Both the position numbers and the translations under genes were made by a program. The notes beneath the pieces were generated by a model. It had not been told where the DNA came from and did no database searches. It saw nothing but the letters and a program-made list of their open reading frames with translations. From NCBI GenBank assembly GCA_036000645.1, contig DASYVA010000221.1, positions 1 through 40,047 of the forward strand: a stretch of DNA of 40,047 nucleotides. The letters run 5' to 3'. The DNA comes from Candidatus Methylomirabilis sp. GTDB taxonomy: Bacteria; Methylomirabilota; Methylomirabilia; Methylomirabilales; JACPAU01. Positions 3,268 through 25,117 of the stretch are shown here, piece after piece; within the stretch, counting starts at the first letter, position 1, and every line of letters starts with the position of its first letter.

Positions 3268-3293
3268 AGAGGCGGGTCGCCTGACCCGCCTCT
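3268..3293 (+). terminator. terminator-like hairpin after the repeat-protein gene
   Basis: A perfect 11-bp stem, AGAGGCGGGTC paired with GACCCGCCTCT, encloses the 4-base loop GCCT. It starts 26 bases after the TAA of the repeat protein and is followed by GTTGTGT, a modest T-rich tail. It probably ends the transcript of the upstream cytochrome/repeat genes before the penta-heme cytochrome. Confidence 0.7.
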
Positions 3294-3318
3294 GTTGTGT
3301 CCAGAGACGACGCAAACT

Positions 3319-4629: not shown

Positions 4630-4636
4630 GGGGACC

Positions 4637-6842: not shown

Positions 6843-7916
6843 TCAGGGGATGATGGCGACCTTGAGGGCCTCCCGCCGCTCCATCGCGGTGAGAGCCGCC
6901 TGCAAATCCTTCAGCGACATCTCGTGACTGATGAGGGGCTCGAGGGTGAGCTGGCGCCCGGCGAGCAGGCGGAGGGCCTCCCGGACGTAGCCCGGAGTAT
7001 GGTGGAACACCCCGAGGAGTGTCAACTCCTCGTAGTGGAGACGGCGGGTGTCGAGTCGGACCGCGCTGCCCGGGGCGCAGCCGCCGAAGAAGACGACCGT
7101 TCCGCCCTTCCGGACGGTCGCCGCCGCCTGCTCCCACGCCTCCGGATGCCCCACCGCCTCGATGACGACGTGGGGCCCCAGGCCACCCGGCGTCCGCTCC
7201 CGGACCGCCGCGACCGGATCGGGGGCGGCGGCGAGGTCCACCACCACCTCCGCGCCGCACGCGTAGGCCCGGCTGAGGCGCAGCGCCCCCCGGCCGACCG
7301 CGATGCAGCGCGCGCCGCGCAGACGCGACGCCTGGAGCAGCAGGAGGCCGATGGGGCCGGTCCCGAGGACGGCCACGGTCTCCCCCGCCCGGACGTTCGC
7401 TCGATCAATCCCGTGCAGAACGCAGGCCAGCGGCTCCAGGAAGGCCGCCTCCCGTGCCGGGAGATCGTCGGGAAGGGCGAGCAGGTTCACCGCCGCGAGG
7501 GGGGCGGGGACCCGGACGTATTCCGCGAACGCGCCGTTCAGGAAGAGGAGGTGCTCACAGAGGTTCTCCTGCCCCCGCCGGCAGTCCTCGCAGGCGAGAC
7601 ACGGGACCGAGTTCGCCGCGGCCACCCGCTGCCCGATCGAAAACTGGGACACCCCTTCCCCCACCGCCGCCACCTCTCCGGCGAACTCGTGGCCAAAGAC
7701 GGTGGGAACCTCCTGGATCATCACCGGATGGCCCCGGCGGAAGGTCTTGACGTCGGTGGAGCAGGTGAGGGCGACCTGGACCCGGACCAGCACCTCCCCG
7801 GGCCGGAGCGGGGGGACCGGGACGGTCCCGTACCGGATGTCCCCCGGGCCGTGGAACGTGACCGCCCGCATCCTGGTCGGGAGAGACCCAGCCGCCCGAC
7901 GGCCGCGAGGGGACAT
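6843..7916 (-). CDS. zinc-dependent medium-chain dehydrogenase (distal copy)
   Basis: 357 residues if started at the ATG at 7916, which overlaps the upstream TGA (TGATG) and has GGAGGG six bases away. An internal ATG at 7871 gives 342 residues and matches where family homology begins. Visible motifs are the catalytic-zinc Cys in ALTCSTDV, GHE in VFGHEFAGEV, the structural-zinc quartet in CLACEDCRRGQENLC, and the NAD(P)-binding GTGPIGLL. This is the threonine/sorbitol dehydrogenase-like branch of MDR enzymes, oxidising a secondary alcohol or reducing a ketone. The substrate is unknown. Being the last gene of a hopanoid/phosphonate operon, it may act on a lipid headgroup or polyol; that is inference. 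Confidence 0.85.
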   Translation of the reverse strand: MSPRGRRAAGSLPTRMRAVTFHGPGDIRYGTVPVPPLRPGEVLVRVQVALTCSTDVKTFRRGHPVMIQEVPTVFGHEFAGEVAAVGEGVSQFSIGQRVAAANSVPCLACEDCRRGQENLCEHLLFLNGAFAEYVRVPAPLAAVNLLALPDDLPAREAAFLEPLACVLHGIDRANVRAGETVAVLGTGPIGLLLLQASRLRGARCIAVGRGALRLSRAYACGAEVVVDLAAAPDPVAAVRERTPGGLGPHVVIEAVGHPEAWEQAAATVRKGGTVVFFGGCAPGSAVRLDTRRLHYEELTLLGVFHHTPGYVREALRLLAGRQLTLEPLISHEMSLKDLQAALTAMERREALKVAIIP

Positions 7917-8968
7917 CAGGCGCCCTCCGCATGCGGCCTCAGGACCACCTTCAGGGCCCGGTGCTCCCGGACCGCCGCCACCGCCTCTGCCAGGGCGCTC
8001 AGGGGAAGGCGGTGGGTGATGAGCTCGGCCACCCGGACGCGCCCGGATGCGAGGAATCCCAGCGCCTCCCGAAGGTCGGCGGGAGAGGGGGAGTAGCTCC
8101 CGAAGAGGGTCAGCTCCCGGTAGTAGATGGGATTGAGGTTGACCGGGTGCTCCGCATCCGGCCCCAGGGGGGCGAAGCAGCAGAGGGCGCCGCCATCCCG
8201 GACCCACCCGAACGCTGGGGGGAGGGTCGCCGCCCTGCCGGCTGCCAGGATGGCCAGGTCGGCCCCGCGGCCGTCGCTCAGGGCCCGAACGGCCGCGGCC
8301 ACGTCTTCCCTGGTCGGGTCGAGGGCCGCCTCCACCCCGAACCGCAGGGCGAGCCCTCGCCGCTCCGGGAGCGGGTCCGCCCCCACGACCCGGACGCCCC
8401 GGACGCGGAAGAGCTGGGTGAAGAGGAGCCCGATCGACCCGAGCCCGACCACCACCGCGGCGTCCCCCGGTTGGAGGGCCGCGCGCTTGACCGCTCGGAG
8501 GCAGGAGGCGAGCGGCTCGGTGAAGGCTGCCTCGTCGTCGCCCAGAGCATCGGGAACGGGGAACGTGACCTCCGCCACATGGCGGGCCGGAACCCGGATG
8601 AAGGCGGCAAAGCCCCCCGGATCGAGGTTCCCGGACCGGAAGGCCCGGCACATGGAAACGTTCCCGTGGCGGCAGTAGTGGCACGTCCCGCAGGGAACGT
8701 GGTGCGCCACCACCACCCGGCTTCCGAGAGCAAATCCCCGAACGCCTTCCCCCACCGCCGCCACGGTCCCCACCACCTCGTGCCCGAGGACCGCGGGGGG
8801 CGGCACCGTCCCGTGGACGATCTTATGGATGTCGGAGCCGCAGAGGCCGCAGCTCCGGAGGGCCACCAGCAGCTCCCCCGGCCCGATGGCCGGGACCGGC
8901 AGGGTCCGGGCCTCCACGCGCCCGTCCCCGACGTAGACGGCTGCCGGCATCGTCCGGGGTATCTCCAC
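7916..8968 (-). CDS. zinc-dependent medium-chain dehydrogenase (proximal copy)
   Basis: 350 residues from GTG at 8968, with GGGAGAGAAGC upstream; an ATG at 8950 is an alternative. Motifs are SCGLCGSDIHK (catalytic Zn Cys and GSD), LGHEVVGTV, structural-zinc Cys in CGTCHYCRHGNVSMC, and the GLGSIGLL nucleotide-binding loop. It resembles threonine-3-dehydrogenase and polyol dehydrogenases. It overlaps the following dehydrogenase by one base (TGATG), so the two are translationally coupled. They are same-superfamily paralogues of clearly different sequence, so they may catalyse successive or paired steps. The substrate is not identifiable from sequence. Confidence 0.87.
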   Translation of the reverse strand: MEIPRTMPAAVYVGDGRVEARTLPVPAIGPGELLVALRSCGLCGSDIHKIVHGTVPPPAVLGHEVVGTVAAVGEGVRGFALGSRVVVAHHVPCGTCHYCRHGNVSMCRAFRSGNLDPGGFAAFIRVPARHVAEVTFPVPDALGDDEAAFTEPLASCLRAVKRAALQPGDAAVVVGLGSIGLLFTQLFRVRGVRVVGADPLPERRGLALRFGVEAALDPTREDVAAAVRALSDGRGADLAILAAGRAATLPPAFGWVRDGGALCCFAPLGPDAEHPVNLNPIYYRELTLFGSYSPSPADLREALGFLASGRVRVAELITHRLPLSALAEAVAAVREHRALKVVLRPHAEGA

Positions 8969-8990
8969 GCTTCTCTCCCGCCTGTTCCGA

Positions 8991-9881
8991 CTACCCCCGC
9001 CGCTCGACGATGAAGCGGGCGATGCCGCGCAGGGGATCCGCCCGCCGGTCCAAGGGCTCGAGCGCCCGGAGCGCCTCGGCCACCAGGCCGGCCGCCCGGG
9101 CCTTCGCGTCCTCCAGCCCGTGGACGGCCGGGTAGGTCGCCTTCCCCCTGGCGGCGTCGCTCCCTACCGCCTTCCCCGTGGCCGTCGCCTCCCCCTCCAC
9201 GTTCAGGATATCGTCCGCGATCTGGAACGCGAGGCCGACCGCCTCCCCGTAGGCCGTGATGGCCTCGAGCTGTCCCGGCGTAGCGCCGGCGAGCAGCGCC
9301 CCGGCCCGGAGCGCCGCGCGGATGAGGGCCCCGGTCTTGTGCCGATGGAGGGACTCGAGGTGCGCCGCGTCCACCTTCTGCCCCTCGGAGGCGATGTCCA
9401 GGGTCTGCCCCCCCACCATCCCCCGCGACCCGGCGGCGGACGCGACCTCCTGGATCACCGTGAGGAGCCGCCTCGGGTCGTGGCGACTCGCGCACTCCGG
9501 ACCGGTCAGGAGGCCGAAGGCCTCGGTCAGGAGGGCGTCCCCCGCCAGGATGGCAACCGCTTCCCCGAACACCCGATGGCTCGTGGGCCGGCCCCGGCGG
9601 AAGTCGTCGTCGTCCATGGCCGGGAGATCATCGTGGATCAGGGAGTACGTGTGGATGAGCTCCAGGGCGGCCGCCACGGGGAGGAGCGGCTCGGCGGCGG
9701 CGCCGACCGCCTCCGCCGCGGCCAGGACCAGGACCGGACGCAGCCGCTTCCCCCCGCCGAAGACGCTGTAGCGCATCGCCCGGTGGATGAGGGCCGGCTC
9801 CGCCGTCTCCGGGGGCAGGTACCGGTGGAGCGCCTCCTCCACCAGGCGCCGGCGCTCCTCCAGGTACTCGGCCGTCTCCAT
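8991..9881 (-). CDS. ispA: short-chain polyprenyl diphosphate synthase (farnesyl diphosphate synthase type)
   Basis: 296 residues. It condenses isopentenyl diphosphate with allylic diphosphates, giving C15 or C20 prenyl diphosphates, the precursors of squalene for hopanoids. Visible are FGGGKRLRP (diphosphate binding), the first Asp-rich motif DDLPAMDDDDFRRG near residue 84, KTGALI, GLAFQIADDILN (second Asp-rich motif) and GKATYPA. Length and motifs match bacterial IspA. It starts one base after the hpnA stop (TGA-G-ATG), so it is coupled. No squalene synthase or HpnCDE genes are in the window, so squalene must be completed by genes elsewhere. Geranylgeranyl diphosphate synthase activity cannot be excluded. 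Confidence 0.9.
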   Translation of the reverse strand: METAEYLEERRRLVEEALHRYLPPETAEPALIHRAMRYSVFGGGKRLRPVLVLAAAEAVGAAAEPLLPVAAALELIHTYSLIHDDLPAMDDDDFRRGRPTSHRVFGEAVAILAGDALLTEAFGLLTGPECASRHDPRRLLTVIQEVASAAGSRGMVGGQTLDIASEGQKVDAAHLESLHRHKTGALIRAALRAGALLAGATPGQLEAITAYGEAVGLAFQIADDILNVEGEATATGKAVGSDAARGKATYPAVHGLEDAKARAAGLVAEALRALEPLDRRADPLRGIARFIVERRG

Positions 9882-9882
9882 C

Positions 9883-10872
9883 TCAGCGCCCCACGTAGCC
9901 GTGGGCGGTGAAGTATCCCACGGCCTCCCGGAGCGCCTCCTCCACCGGCGTCTGTGGCAGGCCCAGCTCCCGGACCGCCTTCCCGGCGTCGAAGAACATG
10001 ATCTTGCGCGCCATCCGCACACCCGTCAACGGGATCCGGGGCGGCTTCCCGGTCAAGCGGGAGAGCCCCTCCGCGGCAACCGCGGCGGCGTACGCGACGG
10101 CGTAGGGGACCCGAAGGCGCGGGGCGGGGATTCCGGTGAGGCGCGCGAGGAGGGCAAAGACCTCCTGGAGCATCAGGTTCGCATGCCCCAGGATGTACCG
10201 CTCCCCCGCCTTTCCCCGCTCCGCGGCCAACAGGTGCCCGGCTGCGACGTCGGAGGCCGCCACCAGGTTGAGCCCGGTACGCAGGACCCCGCGCATTTGC
10301 CCCCGCAGGAAGTCCACGAGCATCTGGCCCGTGGGGGTGGGCTTCACGTCGAAGGCGCCGACGGGGGCTGACGGGTTCACGATGACGACCGGGAGGCCGG
10401 CGCGGTGAAGGCGCAGCGCCTCCTGCTCCGCCAGGAACTTGGAGCGCTTGTAGTGCCCCACCATGTCGGCCAGCGTGACGGGGGTGGTCGCCGGCCCGGG
10501 CCGTCCATCCCCGGGGTTCCCCAGGGCCCCCACGGTGCTGGTGTACACGATCCGCTTCACCCCCGCTTCCCCCGCGGCCGCGAGGACCGTCCGGGTTCCC
10601 CCCACGTTCGTCCGGTACATGGGGGCGGGGTCCGGGACCCAGAGCTGATAGGCCGCGGCCGCGTGGAACACGGTGTCGCAGCCCTGGACCGCCCGGGCCG
10701 TCGCGGCGGGATCCGTGATGTCTCCCTCCAGCACCTCCACGCGCAGGCCCGTCAGGTTCCGGCGGTCGCTCCCGGGCCGGACGAGGCAGCGGACGCTCTC
10801 CCCCTCCCGAAGGAGCGCCCGGACCAGGTGGGCTCCCAGAAAGCCGGTCCCGCCCGTCACCAGCGCCGTCAC
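9883..10872 (-). CDS. hpnA: hopanoid-associated sugar epimerase HpnA
   Basis: 329 residues from a GTG start preceded by AGGGGGG. It is an extended short-chain dehydrogenase (NAD-dependent epimerase) with the Rossmann motif TGGTGFLG at residues 6-13 and the catalytic Y141-KRS-K145. The C-terminal half (NPSAPVGAFDVKPTPTGQM, RYILGHANLMLQEVF) is characteristic of HpnA/TIGR03466. In other bacteria HpnA clusters with squalene-hopene cyclase; its exact step is not settled, though sugar modification of hopanoid side chains is proposed. It lies between the TolC-like gene and ispA within the operon. I am sure of the family and less sure of the reaction. Confidence 0.9.
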   Translation of the reverse strand: MTALVTGGTGFLGAHLVRALLREGESVRCLVRPGSDRRNLTGLRVEVLEGDITDPAATARAVQGCDTVFHAAAAYQLWVPDPAPMYRTNVGGTRTVLAAAGEAGVKRIVYTSTVGALGNPGDGRPGPATTPVTLADMVGHYKRSKFLAEQEALRLHRAGLPVVIVNPSAPVGAFDVKPTPTGQMLVDFLRGQMRGVLRTGLNLVAASDVAAGHLLAAERGKAGERYILGHANLMLQEVFALLARLTGIPAPRLRVPYAVAYAAAVAAEGLSRLTGKPPRIPLTGVRMARKIMFFDAGKAVRELGLPQTPVEEALREAVGYFTAHGYVGR

Positions 10873-10881
10873 GCCACCCCC

Positions 10882-12267
10882 CTACGGACGTCCCGCGGAA
10901 ATCCGGCCCACACCCGCCTCCAGGCCCGCCAGGCCGGCCTTCTCATTGTACAGCGCCCGGAGGTGATCGCTCTGGGCCTTCGCATAGGCGCCGAGCGCAT
11001 CCGCGACGTCCTTGGCCTCCCCGACCCCCAGGTCGAAGTTGGCCACCGCCGCCACGAGCCAGCGGCGTGCCGCGCGCGCGGCGGCTTCGGTCGCCGGGAT
11101 GGCAGCCCGAGCCTCCGTCAGCTCCCGGTGGAGCCGGCGGATCTCCAGCGGAATCCCGTCATCCGCCGTCTCCTTCAAGGCCTCCAGCCGGTCCCGCTCG
11201 GCCCGCGCCTCCCGGACCCGGCCCGCCGTCACGCCGAAGTCGAAGGACCACCGGAGCCCCGCCACCACCCCCAGCTCGGTATGCTCGAACTCGTCCCGGA
11301 TGAAGGGGTTGTTCACCCGATCCCGGTTGGTGGTCCCGGCAAACGAGCCGATCACCGCCATGAAGAGCTGGGGGTAGAAGGTGGCCCGCTCCGCCTCGAG
11401 CTGGTGCTCCCGGGCGGCGAGGCCGGCCGCCAGGCGCTTGAGCTCGGGCCGGGCCTCCCGGGCCGCGTCCAGGTAGTGCTCGAGGGGAGGTGGGGGGTTC
11501 GGCTCGGGCAGGAGGCGCTCCTCGGCCGGCTCGGCCCGCTGACCGGGAGGCAGCCCGGCGAGGACGGCCAGGGCGTCCGCCGCCACCGCCTCGTGCCGCG
11601 TGAGCTCCAGGAGGGCGCGGGCGAGCTCCGCCTCGAAAGTCTGGAGCTTGAAGAGATCGATTTGATCCACCCCGGCCCTCCGGGCCCGGAGCTGCTGCTC
11701 GACCTTCTCCCGGGCGCCCCGGAGCTGCGCCTGGAGTCCCTCGAGAAGCAGCTTCAGGTCGCGCGCCAGGAGGAGGCCGTAGTAGGTCGTCTTCACCCGG
11801 AGCGCGCTCGCCGCCTCCCGCTCCCGGACCTCCGCCTCGGTGGCCGCCACCCCTTCCCGCGCCGCCGCGCGGAGCGCGGTGAGGCGCCCGAAGGTATAGA
11901 GCGGCTGGGTGATGGTGAAGTCGGCCCGGCCGAAGATGCCGGTGATGTCCGGACTGCTGGTGCTGTCGGGGGAGGAGACCTGATTCCCCCGGGCCCGGGG
12001 GGAGGGACCGGTGATCGCCGTGAATTCGAGCTGCGGATACCGGCCGGCATCCGCCTGGGCCACCCGGCTCCGGGCCGCCTCCAGGCCAAAGGTGGCCCCC
12101 CGGACCTCGCCGCTCCGCGCGACCGCCCGCCGGACCGCGTCCTCCAGGGTGAGCCGGACCGGCTCCTCACCTGCTGCGGGGTGCGCCGCGGGGACGCCCA
12201 GCAGGAGGAGGCAGAGGCCGGCGGCGGGGAGGACCCCCCGCAGATCGAGCCCTCGCATCGGTGCCAT
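10882..12267 (-). CDS. TolC-family outer-membrane efflux protein
   Basis: 461 residues. A signal peptide (LPAAGLCLLLLGVPAAHPAAG) precedes two OEP repeats: LTLEDAVRRAVARSGEV with long coiled-coil helices, then a second half starting PPPLEHYLDAAREARPEL. The pattern FTITQPLYTFGRL is typical of TolC-like trimeric tunnels. Such proteins span the outer membrane and periplasm and partner with inner-membrane pumps. No RND, ABC or MFP partner is encoded here. Its place beside hpnM, in a lipid operon, suggests lipid export or outer-membrane delivery. GGGAGGGAACCG precedes the ATG; a second ATG lies three codons on. Confidence 0.85.
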   Translation of the reverse strand: MAPMRGLDLRGVLPAAGLCLLLLGVPAAHPAAGEEPVRLTLEDAVRRAVARSGEVRGATFGLEAARSRVAQADAGRYPQLEFTAITGPSPRARGNQVSSPDSTSSPDITGIFGRADFTITQPLYTFGRLTALRAAAREGVAATEAEVREREAASALRVKTTYYGLLLARDLKLLLEGLQAQLRGAREKVEQQLRARRAGVDQIDLFKLQTFEAELARALLELTRHEAVAADALAVLAGLPPGQRAEPAEERLLPEPNPPPPLEHYLDAAREARPELKRLAAGLAAREHQLEAERATFYPQLFMAVIGSFAGTTNRDRVNNPFIRDEFEHTELGVVAGLRWSFDFGVTAGRVREARAERDRLEALKETADDGIPLEIRRLHRELTEARAAIPATEAAARAARRWLVAAVANFDLGVGEAKDVADALGAYAKAQSDHLRALYNEKAGLAGLEAGVGRISAGRP

Positions 12268-12327
12268 CGGTTCCCTCCCGGCACCTGGCGGAGGGGGAGG
12301 CGGCGGATCCCGCGGCCGGGGCGCCGC

Positions 12328-12993
12328 CTACTGCGGGGGTCCGCTGCCGGCGCTCACCTCCTCCCGCTTGGTGCGCAGCCGCTTGACCAGGGTCTCGTAG
12401 GATGACGCCGCAATGATCTTGTGGAACTGCACCCGGTAGTTCTCCACGATGCTGACGCCGTCGATGACCACGTCCCGCAGCTCCCAGGCCTCCCCCGCCC
12501 GCTCCAGGCGGTAGGCGACGGGGAGGCGGTCCCCCCGCCGATTGACCACCCCGGTCTGCACGGTGGCCGTCCCGTCCTGGACCTCCTCCGCCCCGTACTC
12601 CATCGCCGCCTCCGTCAGGAAGGTGACGACCAGGCGGGTGTAGGCCCGGGTGAACAGCTCGCCGAAGAGGCGGGTGAACTCCCGCCGCTCCGCCGGCGTC
12701 CGGGGGGCCAGGTGCTCCCCCAGCGCCTCGGCCGCCATCGCCGCAAGGTTGAAGCGGGCCGCCAGCAGCTCCCGGATCTTGGCGTCCCGGCTCTCCGTCT
12801 GCCCCGCTCCCTGGAGCGCCGGGTCGTCCAGGACCCCCCGCACCTCCTCTACGAGCGTGCGCACCGCGGCTCCCGGCGGGGGGGAGGCGAAGCCGGGCCC
12901 GGCCCCTCCCAGGGCCCACCAGGCCGCGACCGCCGTTGCGCCGAGCTGGAGTCGGAGCCTGCCGCTCACGACGCTGCCTCCGGCCACCCGCAT
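12328..12993 (-). CDS. hpnM: HpnM / MlaC-like periplasmic lipid-binding protein
   Basis: 221 residues from the ATG at 12993. A GTG at 12968 has better ribosome-binding spacing (GGAGG, 7 bases) and also leaves a good signal peptide, so the start is uncertain. The mature part contains RTLVEEVRGVLDDPAL, KIRELLAARFNLAAMAAEAL, FTRLFGELFTRAYTRLV and a beta-rich half ending WELRDVVIDGVSIVENYRVQ. This is the Ttg2/MlaC fold. MlaC carries phospholipids across the periplasm; the hopanoid-cluster branch is called HpnM and is implicated in moving hopanoids to the outer membrane. With the TolC-like and HpnL-like genes it makes a plausible export module. Confidence 0.8.
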   Translation of the reverse strand: MRVAGGSVVSGRLRLQLGATAVAAWWALGGAGPGFASPPPGAAVRTLVEEVRGVLDDPALQGAGQTESRDAKIRELLAARFNLAAMAAEALGEHLAPRTPAERREFTRLFGELFTRAYTRLVVTFLTEAAMEYGAEEVQDGTATVQTGVVNRRGDRLPVAYRLERAGEAWELRDVVIDGVSIVENYRVQFHKIIAASSYETLVKRLRTKREEVSAGSGPPQ

Positions 12994-13030
12994 GCTCCTC
13001 CGGCAAGCCGTCCGACCGGGGCCACTGGCC

Positions 13031-13780
13031 TCACCGGCGTCCCCGCAGCAGGGCCCGGACGCCGAAGTAGGCAAAGGCGTCCTTCAGGTTCGAGAGAAGT
13101 CGCTTGTGGGGCGCCATCGCCGGGTTCGTCACGTACTCGAGGGTCAGGCTCACCCGCTCCTCCCCATCGCCGAGGGGGGTGATGGCGTGCCAGAGCTTAT
13201 CGCCGTTGAAGATCACCATCGAGCCGGGCTCCGTCGCGACCTGGACTTCCCTGGTCTCCCGCCCGGGGACGTCCTTGTGGAGCTGGTAGGCCAGCCGGCA
13301 GTGCTCGGAGCGCTGCACCAGGCCCATCAGCACCGTGTACCGCGCACCCTTGTAGTGGGACGTGTCGTAGTGGTAGCCGATGTGATCGCCGGGCTCGGTG
13401 TAGAAGTAGAGTGCGCAGGCATGCGGATCGTTCGGGGGGCAGAGGCTCAGGCGCGCATCCACCAGCCGGCTCAGGAAATCGACGAACGCCGGCGAGCGGT
13501 ACACCTCGAAGAACGCGGGGGCCTCTTCGCGGAGCGTGTAGGCGCTGATGCTGCCCCCCTTCTTGAACCGTGGGATGTAGGAGCGGTGCACGTGCGGTCT
13601 GAGGCGTTCGACCCGGGGGACCAGGTGCTCGGCCACCACCGCGGCGGGGAGGAAGCGCTCGAGGAAAACGAACTCGTTCTGCTCCCAGTACGCTCGGCGC
13701 ACCTGCTCGAAGTCGAGCGCCCGGACGGCCGCCGCCACCGCCTGCCCCAGGCTGTCCGCCTGACCCTCGTTCCGCCCCAT
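13031..13780 (-). CDS. 2-oxoglutarate/Fe(II)-dependent oxygenase
   Basis: 249 residues from the ATG at 13780 (GGGGAGGCCC upstream); a GTG at 13801 is an alternative. The double-stranded beta-helix signature is complete: H137-Y-D139 in IGYHYDTSHYKG, distal H198 in GDKLWHAITPL and the 2-oxoglutarate-binding R209 in GEERVSLTLEY. It should hydroxylate or desaturate a small molecule or lipid using O2 and 2-oxoglutarate. It directly follows the 2-aminoethylphosphonate transaminase gene. Hydroxylation of a phosphonate headgroup (as known for some 2-AEP oxygenases) or of a lipid chain is therefore a reasonable guess. Protein hydroxylation cannot be ruled out. Confidence 0.83.
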   Translation of the reverse strand: MGRNEGQADSLGQAVAAAVRALDFEQVRRAYWEQNEFVFLERFLPAAVVAEHLVPRVERLRPHVHRSYIPRFKKGGSISAYTLREEAPAFFEVYRSPAFVDFLSRLVDARLSLCPPNDPHACALYFYTEPGDHIGYHYDTSHYKGARYTVLMGLVQRSEHCRLAYQLHKDVPGRETREVQVATEPGSMVIFNGDKLWHAITPLGDGEERVSLTLEYVTNPAMAPHKRLLSNLKDAFAYFGVRALLRGRR

Positions 13781-13811
13781 GGGCCTCCCCTCTGGCGACA
13801 CCCTTCTCCCC

Positions 13812-17279: not shown

Positions 17280-17286
17280 TGCTCTC

Positions 17287-17850: not shown

Positions 17851-18332
17851 GCCACCATCCCCCGCCGGATGAGGAGAGCGGCCGGCAACCGCTCCTCCCG
17901 GCAGACCCTCGCCATGACGGCGCAGTCCTCCACGTAGGTGGCTTCCCCCACGATCCGGTAGGGGATCCGCACGGTCTCCAGGAGTCGGGGGGTGATCTCC
18001 CCCATGACCCAGTGCTCCGGTGCGTCTTCTATCTGATAGCCCCGCAGGCTGACGACGAGGAGCACGGGAATCCGGTAGATGAGGTTCAGCGAGGCCAGCG
18101 CGTTCAGGGAGACCCCCAGGCCCGAGTTCTGCATCAGGGCGACGGGCCGGCGCCCGGCGAGGTAGGCCCCGGCGGCCAGACCGATCGCCACGTCCTCCCG
18201 GACCGCGGCCCGGTAGCCTTCCGCCTGCAGGCGATCGAGGATCGCCGTCAGAAACGAGCAGGGGACGCCGGTGAAGAAGTCAAATCCGTGGCGCTTCAGC
18301 TCGCCCACGAAGGCGGCCCCCGGGACGCTCAT
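17847..18332 (-). CDS. phosphonopyruvate/sulfopyruvate decarboxylase, pyrimidine-binding (alpha) subunit
   Basis: 161 residues. It corresponds to the N-terminal TPP-pyrimidine domain: FDFFTGVPCSFL (substrate/phosphonate-side loop), VREDVAIGLAAGAYLAG with the conserved cofactor-activating Glu, and LMQNSGLGVSLNALASLN. It resembles ComD and the N-terminal half of Ppd. It starts by a four-base overlap (ATGA) with the unrecognised gene before it and ends by overlap with the beta subunit. The predicted reaction is decarboxylation of 3-phosphonopyruvate to phosphonoacetaldehyde, which pulls the unfavourable PEP mutase equilibrium forward. Confidence 0.82.
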   Translation of the reverse strand: MSVPGAAFVGELKRHGFDFFTGVPCSFLTAILDRLQAEGYRAAVREDVAIGLAAGAYLAGRRPVALMQNSGLGVSLNALASLNLIYRIPVLLVVSLRGYQIEDAPEHWVMGEITPRLLETVRIPYRIVGEATYVEDCAVMARVCREERLPAALLIRRGMVA

Positions 18333-19276
18333 GCCCGCCCCCGCCTCCACCCGAAGCGGGCGGCCGCCGCGCGGAGGATCCCCGCCTCCAGGCGGCGCAG
18401 GAACCGGTGCTCCCGGTCGGCGTGGACCACCTGGACGCACCCCAGGTACCGGAGGTAGAGCTGGACCCCCTTCTCGACGGCGGCGTGCTCGATGCCGGGG
18501 CACAGCGCCCCGAGCCGCTCGATCATGGCCTTCACGAGGGCCACGGGCTGCAGGGGTTTGCCGTCCTGCTCCAGCATCCGGCGTCGGATGACCGGGTCGG
18601 GCTCGTCGGCGGCGGGGACCGCGAGGTCCCAGAGGTCGCGCGCCGTGAGGAGCGCCCGCCGGAACGCCTCCGCCTCGGGGTGCCCGGGGCGGGCGAAGAC
18701 GCCCGTGAACTCGAAGTAATCTACCGCCTCCACGAACGCGACCTGCTGCGCGGCCATGGGGGAGAAGGGGAGAAACGGCATGGGAGGATACGTGTACGTC
18801 AGGAAGTAGGTATGGCTGAGGAAGGCCACCGCGGCGGCCATTCGGTCCGTGCTCACCTCCAGGATTCCCGGGCCCAGGGAGGGAACGGCCCGGTCCAGCT
18901 CCGCGAAGAACGTCTCCAGGTCCTCGAGCAGGCGGCTGACGCAGTAGTGGCGGTTCCCGGCCTCGCGGACCGCTCCCTTCTCCGTCGGCCGGCCCGCCCG
19001 GAGGCGGTCCCGCTCGGCCGCCAGATCGGCCAGGGCGGGGGCCAGGGCGGTCCGGAGGGCGGCGAAGTCGCGCGTCCTCGCCTCGGGGCGCCTCAGGATC
19101 TCGATCGCCGCATCAATGATCGTCGGCTGATACAGGAGAATATTGGCGAACTGCCGGTGGTAGTGGGCGGGCCTCACGTCCATCTCCGGGAGGACAGCGT
19201 AGAGCGCGCCCCCTTCGGGGAGGTTGCAGGCCTCCAGGAGGCGACCGGCGAGGACGAGGTGCGTCGTGAGGTCCAT
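18329..19276 (-). CDS. unrecognised protein B, paralogue of the adjacent protein A
   Basis: 315 residues; no family recognised with confidence. It is a clear paralogue of the next gene upstream (19291-20220). Shared features are THLVLAGRLLEAC at the N-terminus, YAVLPEMD, HYHRQ (H38, H40), RTRDF, STDR near 142 with SHTYF following, and AVEKGVQLYLRYLG near the C-terminus. The set of H6, D33, H38, H40 and H155 looks like a metal site in a helical fold, loosely recalling zinc-dependent phospholipase C-like (PF00882) proteins. Relative to the paralogue, two candidate ligands differ (N45 for His, L159 for Asp). No signal peptide is evident. The gene overlaps the decarboxylase alpha gene by four bases, so it belongs with the phosphonate steps. 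Confidence 0.7.
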   Translation of the reverse strand: MDLTTHLVLAGRLLEACNLPEGGALYAVLPEMDVRPAHYHRQFANILLYQPTIIDAAIEILRRPEARTRDFAALRTALAPALADLAAERDRLRAGRPTEKGAVREAGNRHYCVSRLLEDLETFFAELDRAVPSLGPGILEVSTDRMAAAVAFLSHTYFLTYTYPPMPFLPFSPMAAQQVAFVEAVDYFEFTGVFARPGHPEAEAFRRALLTARDLWDLAVPAADEPDPVIRRRMLEQDGKPLQPVALVKAMIERLGALCPGIEHAAVEKGVQLYLRYLGCVQVVHADREHRFLRRLEAGILRAAAARFGWRRGRA

Positions 19277-19290
19277 GAAAACCCCGCGCC

Positions 19291-20220
19291 TCAGTTCCGG
19301 GGGAAGAGGGTCCGGACCCGCTCCCGGATCTCGGCCTCGAGCGCCCGGCAGAAGCGGAGCTCCCGGTCCGATGGGACGACCTGCGCGAGGCCGATCGTCG
19401 CCAGGAAGTTCCGGATCGCCATCTCCACGCTCGCGGGGGAGATGCCCGGGGCCAGCGCCCCCAGCCGCTGGATCATCGCCTTGATGAGGGCGGCTGCATC
19501 GTAGGGAGGACTCCCCTCGGCGGCTTTTGCGCCGCGGCCGCCCCCCTCGGCCTCCTCCTCACCCGGGAACGCCCGCCGCCAGACGTCGCTGTCATGCATG
19601 GCGCGGCGGAACGGGCGGATCACGTCCGGGCGGTAGAAGGACGCCTTGTACTCCAGGTAGTCAATGCTCGCGAAGAGGTCCCAGTGGGCCGAGTAGTTGG
19701 CGGCAAGGGGGAGAAACACGCCCACCGGATTGTTGAAGGTGTCGAAGTAGGTGTGGCTGACCAGGCTGAGGGAGGCCGCCAGCCGGTCGGTGCTGATCTC
19801 AGCGGCTTCCGGCCCCAGCACCTTCACCGCGCCGGCCAGCTCCGTCGTGATGAAGTGCTCCGCATCCTCGGCGATCCGGCGGGTGAAATAGGCCCGGTTG
19901 CGGGCCTCCAGCTTCTCGAAGGGGGAGGCGGTGGGATCCGTCTGCGCGGCCGCGGCGGCCGCCTCCAAGTCGGTCACGACGGCAGCCATCCGCCGCCGGA
20001 GGGCGGGGAAGTCCCGGGTGCGGCACTCCGGCGTGGCGAAGATGTCGCCGGCGATCTCGACCATCAGGGGCTGATTGGCCAGCAGGTGAGCGTACTGCCG
20101 GTGGTAGTGGATCGGCTCGATGTCGATGACCGGCAGGACGGAGTAGATCGCCGCGCCCTTCGGGAGGGCGCACGCCTCCAGGAGCTTCCCGGCTAAAACG
20201 ATGTGGGTCTCCCAGTCCAC
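19291..20220 (-). CDS. unrecognised protein A, paralogue of protein B
   Basis: 309 residues from GTG at 20220. The family is not recognised. Conserved with its neighbour are THIVLAGKLLEAC, YSVLPVID, HYHRQYAH (H38, H40, H45), RTRDF, ISTDRLAAS, SHTYFDTF (H156, D160) and MIQRLGALAPGI. It retains all the candidate metal-binding residues, so of the pair it is the likelier catalyst. A Gly/Glu-rich stretch around EEEAEGGGRG separates the main body from the C-terminal helix. It lies 19 bases after hpnG and 14 before protein B. A heteromeric helical metal-dependent hydrolase or lipid-modifying enzyme is my guess, with low certainty. Confidence 0.7.
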   Translation of the reverse strand: MDWETHIVLAGKLLEACALPKGAAIYSVLPVIDIEPIHYHRQYAHLLANQPLMVEIAGDIFATPECRTRDFPALRRRMAAVVTDLEAAAAAAQTDPTASPFEKLEARNRAYFTRRIAEDAEHFITTELAGAVKVLGPEAAEISTDRLAASLSLVSHTYFDTFNNPVGVFLPLAANYSAHWDLFASIDYLEYKASFYRPDVIRPFRRAMHDSDVWRRAFPGEEEAEGGGRGAKAAEGSPPYDAAALIKAMIQRLGALAPGISPASVEMAIRNFLATIGLAQVVPSDRELRFCRALEAEIRERVRTLFPRN

Positions 20221-20239
20221 GACACCCCACCCTTCTGCC

Positions 20240-21112
20240 TCAGCCCTGCGGCTCGGCCAACATGCTGGCCAGGACTCTCCCCAGGGCGCCGAGCGCCCGC
20301 CTCCCCCTTCCGGCCAGAGCCAGGAGCGAAACCGCCAGGATCGGCCTCCTCAAGAGGAGCGCGAGGAAGCGCCCGCTCCCCATGTCCCCCCCGGGCCCGA
20401 TCAGCCCCGGGAGGGAGCGCGGGAGCCGGTCTTCCGGTCCGTCCAGGACGACCCGCACGGCGGCGAAGAGCAACCCCCGCCCGGCCGCGAGACGGGAGAG
20501 GGGACCGCTCTCCATGTCCACCGCCACCGCCCCCGTCGCGGCCGCCGCCCGCTTCTCCTCCACGCCCAGAAGTAAGCGAGGGCTCCACAGGAGGGGACCC
20601 CCCAGGACCGGGATCCCGGCCTCGGCCGCCGCCCGGCCCGCCAGTGCCACCCACCCGGCATGGCACGGCGACTTTCCACCGTCCGCATCCTGGACCGCCG
20701 TGGCCACCACCACCGTCCCGGGCGCTGCCGCAGGCGCGAGGCCGCCGCACAGCCCCACGCTCAGCAGCGCGGTGACGGAACTCGGCACTCCGGGGGGAGG
20801 AAGGGCGGGCGGGCGGGCCACGCCCACTCCCACCTGGATCAGGACGATCCGCGGACCCGGGTGCGCCTCCTGCCGGCGCCCCGGCGCGCACCCGACCGAC
20901 TGGCCCAGGAGGCGGGCCTCGAACGCCGTCGCCGCGCAGAGGAGGACGGTCGGGCCGGAGCCTCCCCCTAGTCCCGGGCCAACTAACTTCGCCTCACTTC
21001 GTTCTCGGTCGTCGGCGGTCCTCAACGTACAAACCGCGTACGCCTCCGGCCGCCTCCTCCCTCGGGCCTCATGATGCTCGTCATTTGGCCCGGCACCCCG
21101 GCCGTCGAGCAT
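20240..21112 (-). CDS. hpnG: HpnG-like nucleoside phosphorylase (adenosylhopane side-chain processing)
   Basis: The recognisable domain starts at TVLLCAATAFEARLLGQ (near base 20955) and includes LLSVGLCGGLAPAAAPG, the catalytic-type VDMES and AAVRVVLDG. This is the PNP/MTA-SAH nucleosidase superfamily; in hopanoid clusters HpnG removes adenine from adenosylhopane to give ribosylhopane. The start is unclear. ATG at 21112, TTG at 21121 or TTG at 21025 are the in-frame options, none has a good ribosome-binding site, and the first 50 or so residues are Arg/Gly-rich and unlike the family. HpnH lies just upstream, as expected for consecutive steps. Confidence 0.8.
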   Translation of the reverse strand: MLDGRGAGPNDEHHEARGRRRPEAYAVCTLRTADDRERSEAKLVGPGLGGGSGPTVLLCAATAFEARLLGQSVGCAPGRRQEAHPGPRIVLIQVGVGVARPPALPPPGVPSSVTALLSVGLCGGLAPAAAPGTVVVATAVQDADGGKSPCHAGWVALAGRAAAEAGIPVLGGPLLWSPRLLLGVEEKRAAAATGAVAVDMESGPLSRLAAGRGLLFAAVRVVLDGPEDRLPRSLPGLIGPGGDMGSGRFLALLLRRPILAVSLLALAGRGRRALGALGRVLASMLAEPQG

Positions 21113-21136
21113 GAGGGACAATTCGCTGCAGTAGCA

Positions 21137-22138
21137 CTAGGAGAGGAAGCTCCACTTGAACATCTTCCAGGTGTCCCTCAGGCTCTCGCCCGCCGCCTGG
21201 ATCGCACTCGCCTCATACCCACAGTGGACCATGCACTGGGCGCAGCGGGGGTCCCGCCCCGTCCCGTACTTCTCCCAGGGGGTGTCCTGGATGAGACCCT
21301 GGAAGGTCTTGTGGTGGGCGTCGGTGATGAGGTAGCACGGCCCCTTCCACCCGTTCGGGTTGCGGGTGGGGTTGGCCCAGGCGGTGCACTGGAGCTCCTT
21401 CTCCCCCCGAAGGAAATCCCAGTAGACGGGGGTATTCCCGAGGCTGAGGTCCTTCACCCCCTCCCAGATGATCCGGAAGGTCTCCTTGATCTTCTCCCGC
21501 TCCAGGAAGATGTCGGCCTTCACGGCCGTGTAGGAGAATCCCGGGGAGAGGAGCATCCCCTCCACCCCGAGACCCTGGAGGTACCGGCACAGCTCGATGA
21601 TCTCCTGGGGGTCCGACTCCTTGAAGACCGTGGTGTTGGTGCAGACCCGGTAGCCGTCCTGCTTGGCGGCGATCAGGGCGTCGGTGGCGCGCTGGAAAGC
21701 CCCGGGGAGGTTCATGACCATGTCGTGGGTCTTCGCCAGTCCGTCCAGGTGGATATTGAAAATCAAGTGCGCGTCCTTCGGGTAGCGGTCCAGCGTCCGC
21801 TTCAGGGTGAGCGCGTTCGTGCAGAGGTAGACGAAGCGCTCCCGGGCGACGCAGCCCTTCACCAGGTCCGCGATGTGCGGATAGATCGTCGGCTCCCCGC
21901 CGCAGATGGAGACCACCGGCGCCGGGCACTCGTCCACGGCGGCCAGGCACTCCTCCAGGCTCATGTTCAGGTGCATGGTGTCGGCGTACTCCCGGATTCG
22001 GCCGCAGCCGTCGCAGGAGACGTTGCAGCGGTGCGTGGGCTCCAGCATCAGGACCCATGGGTACTTCTCTGCGCCGTTCCTGCGCATCCGGGTCAGGTAG
22101 CGCATGACGGCCACTTTCTGGCTGAGCGGGACGCTCAT
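21137..22138 (-). CDS. hpnH: adenosyl-hopene transferase HpnH (radical SAM)
   Basis: 333 residues. The radical SAM cluster motif is C38-NVS-C42-DG-C45, preceded by LEPTHRCN. Further family features are SICGGEPTIYPHI, YLCTNALTLKR, NIHLDGLAKTHD, CTNTTVF and the C-terminal cysteines in CAQCMVHCGYEASA. HpnH adds a 5'-deoxyadenosyl radical to diploptene, the first step toward C35 extended hopanoids. It overlaps the preceding carotenoid-type gene by four bases (ATGA). With the cyclase and hpnG the sequence squalene to diploptene to adenosylhopane to ribosylhopane is covered. Confidence 0.95.
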   Translation of the reverse strand: MSVPLSQKVAVMRYLTRMRRNGAEKYPWVLMLEPTHRCNVSCDGCGRIREYADTMHLNMSLEECLAAVDECPAPVVSICGGEPTIYPHIADLVKGCVARERFVYLCTNALTLKRTLDRYPKDAHLIFNIHLDGLAKTHDMVMNLPGAFQRATDALIAAKQDGYRVCTNTTVFKESDPQEIIELCRYLQGLGVEGMLLSPGFSYTAVKADIFLEREKIKETFRIIWEGVKDLSLGNTPVYWDFLRGEKELQCTAWANPTRNPNGWKGPCYLITDAHHKTFQGLIQDTPWEKYGTGRDPRCAQCMVHCGYEASAIQAAGESLRDTWKMFKWSFLS

Positions 22139-22989
22139 CGCCGCACCTCCCATCCTGGCCCGCCGGCCGCCCGCGCCGCGCTCCCGGCCCCGAGGCGGGG
22201 AGCGGCGACCCCCAGGCGCGACGCAGCGGCAAGGCCCAGGCATCCGGTGACCCCGGTGCTCACAGCGCAGAGCCGCCACAGGCCGATGCCGGCGGTGACG
22301 GCCAGGTTGAAGGCGAGAACGAGGCCGAACAGCGTGGGTCCGTACAGCCCCTGGTACGGCCAGCTCCGGGCCCATTCGGGAGCGGCCCGGGGACCCGCAC
22401 GCCGGTCGCACCAGGCGTTCAGCCCGAGACCCACGAGCCCCACCAGGAACCAGCCGGCGAAATTGGCGAGCGGCACGCCGAAGTAGATCCCGCCCTCGGG
22501 GTACCGGTAGATCTGCCCCAGGAACCAGTCCTCCCCCTGCAGGGCGACGGGATCAATGACGACATCGGCGAGCATGAACAGGGTTGCCCCCAGGAGGACC
22601 GCCCCCCTCGCCCCGCCGGCCGGGAAGAGCGGGGGCACCCCCTCCCGCCACGCCCGCAAGGCCGTCCCCCGGGGCGCCCGGTACAGCCGCGCCAGGCTGG
22701 CCGCCCCGTAGGCCAGGAAGATGAAAGAGAGGGAATCCATGACGGGGACATTGCTCAGGTAGAGCTCCTTTCCGATCGTCGCCCCCGTGTACTCATAGAA
22801 TCCGAACGGGACCCCGATCCGGGTCGAGGCGAACTCGGCCAGGAAGGCCGTGGCCCATACGATCCCCGCGAACCGAAGCGCCCGCCGGAGCCCCTGCTCC
22901 GCGGCGGCAGCCACGAGGGCGAGCCCCAGGAAAAGGAAGACGTAGGGCCGGAGGACCAGAGTTCCCCACAGGAGCCCGACCCCTTCCAT
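22135..22989 (-). CDS. carotenoid biosynthesis (DUF422/CruF-like) membrane protein
   Basis: 284 residues with about seven hydrophobic helices. Family motifs are AEFASTRIGVPFGFYEYT, SNVPVMDSLSFIFLAYGA, LADVVIDPVA and YFGVPLANFAGWFLVG. These match PF04240, which includes CruF and bacterioruberin hydratases that add water to carotenoid end groups. No other carotenoid gene is in the window. Its position between squalene-hopene cyclase and hpnH (one-base overlap TGATG before, four-base overlap after) suggests it acts on a hopanoid or another triterpenoid. That is inference from context; hydration of a terminal isoprenoid double bond would be chemically analogous. Confidence 0.82.
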   Translation of the reverse strand: MEGVGLLWGTLVLRPYVFLFLGLALVAAAAEQGLRRALRFAGIVWATAFLAEFASTRIGVPFGFYEYTGATIGKELYLSNVPVMDSLSFIFLAYGAASLARLYRAPRGTALRAWREGVPPLFPAGGARGAVLLGATLFMLADVVIDPVALQGEDWFLGQIYRYPEGGIYFGVPLANFAGWFLVGLVGLGLNAWCDRRAGPRAAPEWARSWPYQGLYGPTLFGLVLAFNLAVTAGIGLWRLCAVSTGVTGCLGLAAASRLGVAAPRLGAGSAARAAGGPGWEVRR

Positions 22990-25040
22990 CAGTCCGCCTC
23001 CCGCATGGCGTTCCGGTAGGCTGCCAGGGCCCAGAGGGGGAAGGTGGTCGGATACAGGTGGTACCGCAGGTAGAAGACCCGGGGGAAGCCGGTTCCGTTG
23101 AAGACCGGGTCGCTCCACCGCCCAGTGCTCTCCTGGGTCCGAAGCAGGTAGCCGACCCCCCGTGCGACCGCCTCCCCCCGCGCCCGACCGCCCCCCACGA
23201 GGGCCATGACAGCCCAGGCCGTTTGGCTCGGGGTGCTCGGCCCGGTCCCGGCCCCGGCGGGATCGGCGTAGGATTCGCAGGACTCCCCCCATCCCCCATC
23301 GGGGTTCTGGACCGCCTCGAGCCAGTCGAGCGCCTGCTGCACGTAGGGTCGATCCAGCGGTTCCCCGATGGCCTTCAGGCCCCGCATCACCGACCAGGTC
23401 CCGTAGATGTAGTTCACGCCCCACCGGCCGTACCATCCACCGCCCGGCACCTTGGTCGCCCGCAGGAAGTGGAGGGCCCGGCGGGCCGGGGGGAAGTCGC
23501 CGCCGTAGCCCAAGTACCCCAGGGCATCGAGAGCGCGGCCCGTCAGATCCTCGGTACTGGGGTCGAGCAGCGCGCCGTGGTCGGCGAACGGGATATTGTT
23601 TAGCCAGAGCCGGTTGTTATCGGCATCGAAGGAGCCCCAGCCCCCGTCCTCCCCCTGCATGCCCAGGAGCCAGGCCAGTCCGCGCTGGAGCGCTTCCTCC
23701 TGCTGCGTGCCATCGGGAAGGCGCAGCCGGGCCAGGGCCATCAAGGCGACTGCAGTGTCGTCGTTGTCCGGATAGAAGTCGTTGCTGAACTGGAACGGCC
23801 AGCCCCCGGGTTCCAGCCCCGGCCGCTTGATCTGCCAGTCCCCGGAGACCCGGACCTGGCGCGCGAGCAGCCACTCCCCGGCCCGGACCAGGGTGGGGTC
23901 GTCGGCAGCCACCCCGGACTCGAGGAGCGCGTGGATGGCCAGGGCCGTGTCCCAGACCGGCGAAAGGCAGGGCTGCACCTGCAGCCGATCCGGTCCCTCC
24001 GCGACCAGGGCATCAAGGGCCGTGATCCCCTGCTGCACGAGGGGATGCTTTTCGGAGTACCCCAAGCAGCGGAGCGCGAGGACGGCGTTGGCCATGGCCG
24101 GGTAGATGCCCCCCAGGCCTCCCGGCACCTCCGCGCGGGCGACGAGCCACGCCTCCGCCCGCTCGAGGGCGGCCCTGCGCCACCGCGCCAGATGGTACCG
24201 GTCGTAGAGGTGGACGAGGCGATCCAGGAGGACAAATGCGCTCTTCAGGCTGAGGAGCTGGGAGGCCCGCTCGAGCCCCGTCCGCTCCCGGGAGCCTCGG
24301 ACGAGTTCGTCCAGGCCGAGGGCAGGGGGCAGGACGTGGATCGGCCGGTAGTGGAAGAGGACCAGGAGGGGGACCAGGACCGTCCGCGACCAGTACGACA
24401 TCTGGTAGATGCTGAACGGCGCCCGGGGCGGCAGGAGCAAGATCTCGGCCGGCATGCAGGGGATCTTTTCCCAGTCGTATTGCCCGAAGAGGGCGAGGGT
24501 GATCTTGGTGAAGACGTTGACCTGGCTGAGGCCCCCCAGATCCAGGATCACCTGGCGCGCCCGGCGCATCCAGGGCTCCTCCGGAGAGACCCCAGCCAGC
24601 TTGCAGGCGAAATAGGCCTTCGCAGTGGCGCTGAGGTCGCTCCGGCCACCGGGGTAGATGCTCCACCCCCCCTCCGGCAGCTGGAGGTCCCGGATGTGGG
24701 CAACGGCCTTCCGCTCCCGCCGCGTCTCCACGCGCCCGAGCAGGTGCTGCAGCAGGCAGTATTCGGCCGTGATCGTGACGTCGGCTTCGAGGAGCCCGAG
24801 CCAGTACCCCTCGGGCGCTTGCAGGCCGAGGAGGGCCGCCCGGGCCTCCGCGAGACCCCGCTCCACGGCATGAACGGTAGGAAGCGCGATCGGGCCCGTG
24901 GGGGCGGGTCGGGGGCGGGTCGGCGCGCCGGCCGGCGCGCGGGCCGGGCCCTGCCGCACGGCCCTTAGCCAGCCTGCCGTGCCCCGGGTCCAGGCGAGGA
25001 GGGTGAGCCAGGTTTCCAGACGATCGAGCAGAAAAGACAT
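22989..25040 (-). CDS. hpnF: squalene-hopene cyclase
   Basis: 683 residues, first gene of the long operon. It cyclises squalene to hopene/hopanol at the inner membrane. The catalytic Asp motif D425-N-D-D-T-A is present, along with several QW repeats (QNPDGGWGES, QGEDGGWGSF, GDWQIKRPG region), LPPALGLDE, and the conserved SMPAEILLLPP-type segment as CMPAEILLLPP. Length is slightly over the usual 630-660 because of an Arg/Pro-rich N-terminal insert (residues 30-50). The ATG at 25040 has GAGGTC ten bases upstream. A candidate promoter lies about 50 bases before the start. Confidence 0.95.
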   Translation of the reverse strand: MSFLLDRLETWLTLLAWTRGTAGWLRAVRQGPARAPAGAPTRPRPAPTGPIALPTVHAVERGLAEARAALLGLQAPEGYWLGLLEADVTITAEYCLLQHLLGRVETRRERKAVAHIRDLQLPEGGWSIYPGGRSDLSATAKAYFACKLAGVSPEEPWMRRARQVILDLGGLSQVNVFTKITLALFGQYDWEKIPCMPAEILLLPPRAPFSIYQMSYWSRTVLVPLLVLFHYRPIHVLPPALGLDELVRGSRERTGLERASQLLSLKSAFVLLDRLVHLYDRYHLARWRRAALERAEAWLVARAEVPGGLGGIYPAMANAVLALRCLGYSEKHPLVQQGITALDALVAEGPDRLQVQPCLSPVWDTALAIHALLESGVAADDPTLVRAGEWLLARQVRVSGDWQIKRPGLEPGGWPFQFSNDFYPDNDDTAVALMALARLRLPDGTQQEEALQRGLAWLLGMQGEDGGWGSFDADNNRLWLNNIPFADHGALLDPSTEDLTGRALDALGYLGYGGDFPPARRALHFLRATKVPGGGWYGRWGVNYIYGTWSVMRGLKAIGEPLDRPYVQQALDWLEAVQNPDGGWGESCESYADPAGAGTGPSTPSQTAWAVMALVGGGRARGEAVARGVGYLLRTQESTGRWSDPVFNGTGFPRVFYLRYHLYPTTFPLWALAAYRNAMREAD

Positions 25041-25088
25041 AATAAGAAGACCTCGTTCATGTTGGGATCTGACCCCGAATAATCCCTG

Positions 25089-25117
25089 AGGCTAGCAGCC
25101 GGACCCAGAACCGTCAA
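25089..25117 (-). promoter_or_regulatory. candidate sigma70-type promoter of the hopanoid/phosphonate operon
   Basis: Reading the minus strand, TTGACG (25117-25112) is followed after exactly 17 bases by TAGCCT (25094-25089). The -35 box matches five of six consensus bases; the -10 matches T1, A2 and T6. Transcription would begin near 25080, giving a leader of about 40 bases before the squalene-hopene cyclase ATG. It stands in the 136-base gap between the kinase gene and the cyclase, the largest gap around the operon, which otherwise holds no ORF. Confidence 0.5.

Follow-up and report, generated by a model that had tools for sequence, protein, structure and literature searches.

Which headgroup is made by genes that lie among those for hopanoid synthesis and export, and is it attached to the hopanoid itself? 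The question is raised by a contig of Candidatus Methylomirabilis sp. (DASYVA010000221.1; all 40,047 nucleotides of it are hereafter the window), which is one whole contig (G000:C221) of a 2.67-Mb genome that is 96.8% complete and has, as its nearest named relatives, metagenome-assembled genomes of Candidatus Methylomirabilota (NC10). It carries 19 genes, all on the minus strand and all judged to be real, at positions 6843–25040 (Table 1). In order of transcription, they encode squalene-hopene cyclase (SHC), a CruF-like protein, HpnH, an HpnG-like protein, UNK1, UNK2, PpdA, PpdB, a CDP-alcohol phosphotransferase (CDPPT) and an HpnL-like protein, followed by a PntC-like cytidylyltransferase (NTP), PhnW, a 2-oxoglutarate (2OG) oxygenase-like protein, MlaC/HpnM-like and TolC-like proteins, HpnA, farnesyl diphosphate (FPP) synthase and two zinc alcohol dehydrogenases (ADHs); UNK denotes a family absent from Pfam. 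Our analysis points, tentatively, to a conserved hopanoid-linked cassette for a cytidylyl-activated aminoethyl-phosphorus headgroup, which either a hopanoid or some co-exported lipid would carry; O-phosphoethanolamine is a likelier headgroup than 2-aminoethylphosphonate (AEP).

An earlier note on this DNA had described a 19-gene operon that mixes hopanoid and headgroup genes, and its composition, order and overlaps are borne out by profiles, frames and junctions. Gene starts were picked by ribosome site and homology. The minus-strand frames of most of the array are backed by codon-position GC, and at 8 of the 18 junctions neighboring genes share 1 or 4 bases (SHC/CruF, CruF/HpnH, UNK2/PpdA, PpdA/PpdB, CDPPT/HpnL, HpnL/NTP, NTP/PhnW and ADH1/ADH2). 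Terminator-like sites in the region show no excess over shuffles (7 versus 5.2 ± 2.4). The span given earlier, 6843–25117, holds at its low end, while the SHC start is corrected to 25040. The earlier inventory left 18329–19276 and 19291–20220 undescribed; these are the UNK paralogues, and the CruF-like gene is a further member added to that inventory.

Family calls rest on curated NCBIfam cut-offs and on Pfam matches. For PpdA and PpdB, the phosphonopyruvate models and the sulfopyruvate decarboxylase alpha and beta models (TIGR03845, 116 bits for PpdA; TIGR03846, 182 bits for PpdB) score about equally and all below cut-off; the name of the decarboxylase is therefore ambiguous. The best Protein Data Bank (PDB) match of PpdB is RhiF (9iz3_B, 2.4e-29), and for RhiEF the decarboxylation of phosphonopyruvate is proven (PMC12141560). 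PhnW is, by the curated cut-off, a member of the AEP-transaminase family with a predicted substrate, and AEP transaminases are the top PDB matches of its family profile. A role in place of HpnO, making aminotriol, was rejected as the main reading for PhnW, which scores as an AEP transaminase and is fused to NTP in one planctomycete. The NTP family profile is nearest to Treponema denticola PntC (6pd1, 104 bits), ahead of LicC (81 bits) and inositol-phosphate cytidylyltransferase (IPCT, 76 bits), unlike the window sequence alone, which is nearer to IPCT. The NTP active site has Asp at the position of PntC Glu104, as in LicC, which is too thin a basis for choosing between AEP and phosphoethanolamine. 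CDPPT has the complete catalytic motif DxxDGxxAR(x8)GxxxDxxxD. The PhnW assignment, the NTP profile and the kind of decarboxylase all fit AEP; the entry step does not.

The equal decarboxylase scores would also suit a sulfonate route, in which PpdAB would act on sulfopyruvate and the transaminase would yield taurine; ComA (phosphosulfolactate synthase) is encoded in the window's own genome (G000, C52:5156-5875, another contig) and in that of a congener (G003; G-numbers denote genomes and L-numbers loci). We regard this route as very improbable: ComA was not found in the 13 other genomes searched, NTP and CDPPT would have no role, and the planctomycete locus L032 has NTP and transaminase fused in one protein.

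The mixed neighborhood was then followed in other genomes, which are metagenome-assembled and fragmented. The congener G003 has the same gene order from SHC to the TolC-type outer-membrane efflux protein (OEP) at 76 to 94% identity, and lacks the 2OG gene. The oxygenase was rejected as a core step, and the hydroxylation suggested in the earlier note is not supported, the gene not being conserved even within the genus. Two NC10 genomes of another family, G015 (CSP1-5) and G024 (SPGG6), hold CruF, HpnH, HpnG, NTP, CDPPT, one UNK and PpdA-PpdB together; the cluster is flanked by MlaD, MlaE, OEP, MlaC and an HpnN-like transporter in G015 and by an MlaF-like ATPase in G024. When 84,980 species were scanned with an UNK profile, 16 loci were returned. 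Four Omnitrophota loci read SHC-HpnH-UNK-PpdA-PpdB-PhnW-NTP-CDPPT-HpnL-HpnA, then HpnG, and a fifth is interrupted by a contig end. L032 combines SHC, UNK1, UNK2, PpdA and PpdB with a single NTP-PhnW fusion open reading frame (ORF; L032:12967-14826), laid out as in T. denticola PntC-AEPT (6pd1). In Nitrospirota, UNK-PpdA lies near SHC and HpnA at one locus, and a second carries UNK-PpdA-PpdB. Five Brocadiia genomes (L058-L061, L069) carry UNK-PpdA-PpdB-PhnW-NTP-CDPPT; in L061, HpnI, HpnJ and HpnK adjoin the module by profile match, and similar-looking ORFs occur in L058 and L059.

UNK and the headgroup module thus stand beside hopanoid genes in Methylomirabilota, Omnitrophota, Planctomycetota (Brocadiia included) and Nitrospirota, and since the joining is repeated with different hopanoid genes, it is not due to chance. 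Conservation of the mixed neighborhood, whose lack the earlier note would have taken as a refutation, extends to at least four phyla and, together with the NTP-PhnW fusion, backs its idea of one membrane program. The distribution is patchy (3 clear UNK matches in 384 Omnitrophota; 5 in 99 relatives of the window), which suggests that the cassette spread horizontally. The Omnitrophota cluster L037 also contains IspH and, at its end adjoining HpnG, a ribulose-phosphate 3-epimerase-like gene (L037:17734-18363), whose product might have the ribosyl side chain of hopanoids as its substrate.

The same survey bears on whether anything is attached to the hopanoid. The module could instead make an ordinary glycerophospholipid headgroup that is merely co-regulated with hopanoids. 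The Scalindua-type module, which lies apart from hopanoid genes, argues for this. In the Brocadiia genomes with loci L051, L052 and L062-L068, PpdA-PpdB-PhnW-NTP-CDPPT is mostly away from hopanoid genes (several of these genomes lack PEP mutase). CDPPT, moreover, resembles phosphatidylinositol-phosphate (PIP) and archaetidylinositol-phosphate synthases, and phosphatidylserine (PS) decarboxylase (Psd) was not found in the five Omnitrophota with the cluster. This reading is harder to reconcile with the repeated placement of the module between hopanoid side-chain genes and beside HpnI/J/K, and the window's genome already has phosphatidylethanolamine (PE) via Psd. We consider a co-regulated glycerophospholipid a serious possibility that falls well short of an even chance.

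Does the cassette start from a phosphonate? To our knowledge, phosphoenolpyruvate (PEP) mutase is the only established entry to phosphonates that forms the C-P bond. A search of the window's genome with PF13714 gave no PEP mutase, only a weak match on contig C156 that was rejected as a PanB-like ORF beside a pantothenate-synthetase-like frame; TIGR02320 had no match in G000-G003. The enzyme is absent by profile from the two near-complete congeners, G000 (97%) and G003 (95%), and occurs in only 2 of the 20 genomes with UNK and the module: G015, where it lies 40 kb from the cluster and has the motif EDKKFPKDNS, and Scalindua rubra (G103). The AEP headgroup of the earlier note is thereby not supported, its entry enzyme being missing from the genome itself, the genus and nearly all cluster genomes. 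Among 75 Brocadiia-class genomes, 22 have module-type PpdB; 8 of these have PEP mutase only, 7 UNK only, 1 both and 6 neither. Over all module genomes, PEP mutase is found in 2 of 20 with UNK versus 8 of 14 without (Fisher p = 0.006, inflated by shared ancestry); within Brocadiia alone, p = 0.074. Module orthologues of PEP mutase–positive and –negative Brocadiia interleave, so the module is independent of PEP mutase.

PEP mutase may have been missed in a classical AEP pathway, because it lies outside the assembly or elsewhere in the genome, or may be replaced by phosphonate uptake. The genomes are fragmented, two of them do carry the enzyme elsewhere (G015 and G103), and a related module adjoins a PEP mutase–NTP fusion in the planctomycete G492. 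Yet it is absent from both near-complete congeners and from all but 2 of the 20 genomes that combine UNK with the module, and imported AEP would leave the decarboxylase pointless, so this explanation is quite unlikely. In the G492 module, a 328-residue protein with weak similarity to the squalene cyclase–like toroid is encoded between PpdB and PhnW (L057:7044-8030).

Alternatively, UNK itself could be the entry enzyme. The family measures ~290 to 310 residues, with a distant homologue (23%) in Salinibacillus. No relevant Pfam match was obtained for 20 members, and two confident, all-helical structure models (pLDDT 87 and 93) gave no fold match in a Foldseek search of the PDB. Residues D2, H6, D33, H40, H156 and D187 (UNK1 numbering) are invariant in the alignments. 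A zinc phospholipase C, guessed from this His/Asp pattern, received no support from Pfam or Foldseek. Judged by its place before PpdA, UNK belongs with the headgroup module and not with hopanoid cyclization; in three Brocadiales loci (L033, L034 and L036) it lies apart from the module.

A pathway in which UNK makes phosphonopyruvate or another C-P precursor, leading to an AEP phosphonolipid or AEP-hopanoid, would explain why UNK adjoins PpdA, in the place of PEP mutase in canonical clusters, across NC10, Omnitrophota, Planctomycetota, Nitrospirota and five Brocadiia. It would also account for the rarity of PEP mutase in UNK-positive genomes and for a PhnW that passes the AEP-transaminase cut-off. 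We nevertheless find it unlikely. The association is confounded by ancestry, and six Brocadiia genomes, of unknown completeness, carry the module but lack UNK as well as PEP mutase. The modeled UNK fold, helical with conserved His and Asp, would offer no PEP mutase–like barrel, and making a C-P bond from PEP is energetically strongly unfavorable. That UNK serves as another kind of C-P or phospho-oxo-acid enzyme is likewise possible but unlikely, and the boldest version, a new nonhomologous C-P–forming (or other unprecedented phospho-2-oxo-acid) enzyme that replaces PEP mutase and feeds PpdAB toward an AEP-hopanoid in several uncultured phyla, is improbable. Our default guess is that UNK is a metal-dependent hydrolase whose substrate is a phosphorylated intermediate.

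Since PEP mutase is missing, we favor 3-phosphohydroxypyruvate as the starting 2-oxo acid. It is an intermediate of serine biosynthesis, one oxygen longer than phosphonopyruvate, and would be the simplest substrate of a serine-making cell that fits every enzyme. By the logic of the Pnt pathway, its decarboxylation by PpdAB would leave a C2 aldehyde, which the PhnW-like enzyme would aminate to an aminoethyl-phosphorus compound, and the PntC-like enzyme would couple that compound to cytidine monophosphate (CMP); the sequence would most likely run through phosphoglycolaldehyde and phosphoethanolamine to CDP-ethanolamine rather than through phosphonopyruvate and AEP. CDPPT would then transfer the aminoethyl-phosphorus group to a lipid alcohol, which may be a bacteriohopanepolyol or else a glycerolipid belonging to the same membrane program, and the HpnL-, MlaC/HpnM- and TolC-like proteins may carry the product to the outer membrane. 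The transport genes around the module in G015 and G024 (MlaD, MlaE, MlaF, HpnN-like and OEP), taken with the cassette, count in favor of this reading, as does the lack of Psd in the five Omnitrophota, where a further supply of ethanolamine phosphate would be useful. What the sequences show is the enzyme families, the gene order, its conservation and, by profile search, the absence of PEP mutase; from these we infer the substrates, the acceptor, the transport and the role of UNK.

Several points weigh against the phosphoethanolamine route. We know of no enzyme that decarboxylates 3-phosphohydroxypyruvate to phosphoglycolaldehyde, and a literature search for this reaction found nothing. The window's genome has Psd and with it the ordinary PE route, and no cluster-type PhnW was found in G015 or G024. 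The PEP mutase–NTP fusion beside the G492 module makes true phosphonates possible there, so that in such hosts the module enzymes may handle them. The genomes compared, finally, are metagenome-assembled.

Among the closest described systems is the Pnt pathway (T. denticola Ppm/Ppd/PntC-AEPT; Rice et al. 2019, PMC6697681), which shares the decarboxylase, the AEP-type transaminase and the cytidine triphosphate–dependent activation of an aminoethyl-phosphorus compound; in one planctomycete (L032), the NTP-transaminase fusion is shared as well. Unlike the Pnt pathway, the cassette has no PEP mutase, a split decarboxylase, hopanoid surroundings and an added CDPPT and UNK, and its transaminases form a clade separate from tested AEP transaminases. 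RhiEF (PDB 9IZ3; PMC12141560) and ComDE are two-subunit thiamine pyrophosphate (TPP) decarboxylases, as is PpdAB, which, in contrast to them, is not surrounded by a complete phosphonate or coenzyme M pathway, and the scores do not separate the substrates. Hpn clusters (HpnA, G, H, L, M, I/J/K; PMC12583986) share SHC, HpnH, HpnA and HpnG/L/M-like proteins, and HpnI/J/K in Brocadiia; those found described lack the decarboxylase-transaminase-cytidylyltransferase-phosphotransferase module, and alphaproteobacterial ones are reported to have no obvious extra candidate genes nearby (PMC12583986). The Lic (LicC, CTP:phosphocholine cytidylyltransferase) and Kennedy CDP-ethanolamine pathways share activation of an amino-alcohol phosphate and its transfer by a CDP-alcohol enzyme; there, the phosphate comes from choline or ethanolamine kinase, whereas the cassette would build it de novo through a decarboxylase and a transaminase.

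A literature search for hopanoids with a phosphonate or CDP-ethanolamine returned nothing relevant, and the literature searched yielded no system of this composition, in line with the earlier note. All core enzyme families except UNK are known; it is their combination and the missing PEP mutase that are new for the biosynthesis of CMP-activated headgroups. An AEP headgroup and a covalent link to hopanoids are both hypothetical. Hopanoids are main bacterial biomarkers of the rock record, yet no function is assigned to HpnA or HpnL, or to the bacteriohopanetetrol-forming step (PMC12583986). A cassette that connects hopanoid genes with aminoethyl-phosphorus activation in several phyla predicts zwitterionic hopanoids or co-exported lipids that can be searched for directly. 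The O-phosphate reading, if true, would provide a new route to phosphoethanolamine and CDP-ethanolamine; the C-P reading, if true, would break the rule that biological phosphonates begin with PEP mutase.

Among the remaining genes of the array, the hopanoid cluster markers SHC and HpnH are both above their curated cut-offs, and the HpnG-, HpnL- and HpnM-like proteins look to be clear family members though below the curated equivalog cut-offs. The CruF-like gene, between SHC and HpnH, remains close to hopanoid genes in relatives from NC10 and Nitrospirota and could encode a hopanoid-tailoring enzyme. ADH1 stands beside FPP synthase and HpnA also in G015, where ADH2 is likewise kept.

Table 1. 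Genes of the array, in order of transcription.
Gene	Product	Position	Strand	Evidence
SHC	Squalene-hopene cyclase, 683 aa	22989..25040	-	TIGR01507 749 bits, above cut-off
CruF-like	CruF/carotenoid-hydratase-like membrane protein, 284 aa	22135..22989	-	PF04240 3.9e-24; TIGR03460 57 bits, below cut-off
HpnH	Adenosylhopane synthase, 333 aa	21137..22138	-	TIGR03470 423 bits, above cut-off
HpnG-like	Phosphorylase, start uncertain	20240..20944	-	TIGR03468 116 bits vs cut-off 187; position conserved
UNK1	309 aa	19291..20220	-	No Pfam match; AlphaFold pLDDT 87; homologues beside PpdA in several lineages
UNK2	Paralogue of UNK1 (43-44% identity), 315 aa	18329..19276	-	No Pfam match
PpdA	TPP-binding N-half of ComDE/RhiEF-type 2-oxo-acid decarboxylase, 161 aa	17847..18332	-	TIGR03297 N half 123 bits
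PpdB	C-half of ComDE/RhiEF-type decarboxylase, 187 aa	17287..17850	-	TIGR03297 C half 186 bits
CDPPT	CDP-alcohol phosphotransferase, 212 aa	16641..17279	-	PF01066 3.8e-8
HpnL-like	Flippase-like membrane protein, 330 aa	15652..16644	-	TIGR03476 188.8 bits vs cut-off 195.65
NTP	PntC-like cytidylyltransferase, 246 aa	14915..15655	-	MobA-like NTP_transf_3 PF12804 1.9e-16
PhnW	PhnW-type class V aminotransferase, 368 aa	13812..14918	-	TIGR03301 (PhnW-AepZ) 402 bits vs cut-off 360.8
2OG oxygenase-like	2-Oxoglutarate/Fe(II) oxygenase-like, accessory, 256 aa	13031..13801	-	Weak PF13640/PF23169; HxD...H motif by eye
HpnM/MlaC-like	Periplasmic lipid-binding protein, start uncertain	12328..13074	-	PF05494 (MlaC) 1.9e-33; TIGR03481 61.8 bits vs cut-off 160
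OEP	TolC-type outer-membrane efflux protein, 461 aa	10882..12267	-	PF02321 1.1e-34
HpnA	Hopanoid-associated epimerase, 329 aa	9883..10872	-	TIGR03466 454 bits, above cut-off
FPP synthase	Farnesyl diphosphate synthase, 296 aa	8991..9881	-	NF045485 368 bits, above cut-off
ADH1	Zinc-type alcohol dehydrogenase 1, 350 aa	7916..8968	-	PF08240/PF00107
ADH2	Zinc-type alcohol dehydrogenase 2, 357 aa	6843..7916	-	PF08240/PF00107

Just downstream of the operon, on the same strand, lies a gene for a PagL-like lipid A deacylase/outer-membrane barrel (5485-6183); because the G015 cluster has a homologue (37%; L015:12408-12953) next to MlaC and SHC, it may be part of the same membrane program. Directly upstream of SHC, a four-carbon-acid sugar kinase gene (25177-26487, minus strand; D-threonate kinase family, 212 bits, below cut-off) was rejected as an operon member, as it was not seen beside SHC in G003. 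It is preceded by histidine-degradation genes on the minus strand (26484-31026; imidazolonepropionase-like, urocanase and aromatic amino-acid lyase), the lyase being upstream of SHC in G003 too, and beyond these by genes for a branched-chain amino-acid ATP-binding cassette transporter, a class III aminotransferase and an arginase-family protein. The other end of the window (202-5488, plus strand) encodes a BNR/YCF48-like protein, c-type and multihaem cytochromes, a proline-rich ORF and a formylglycine-generating-enzyme-like protein.

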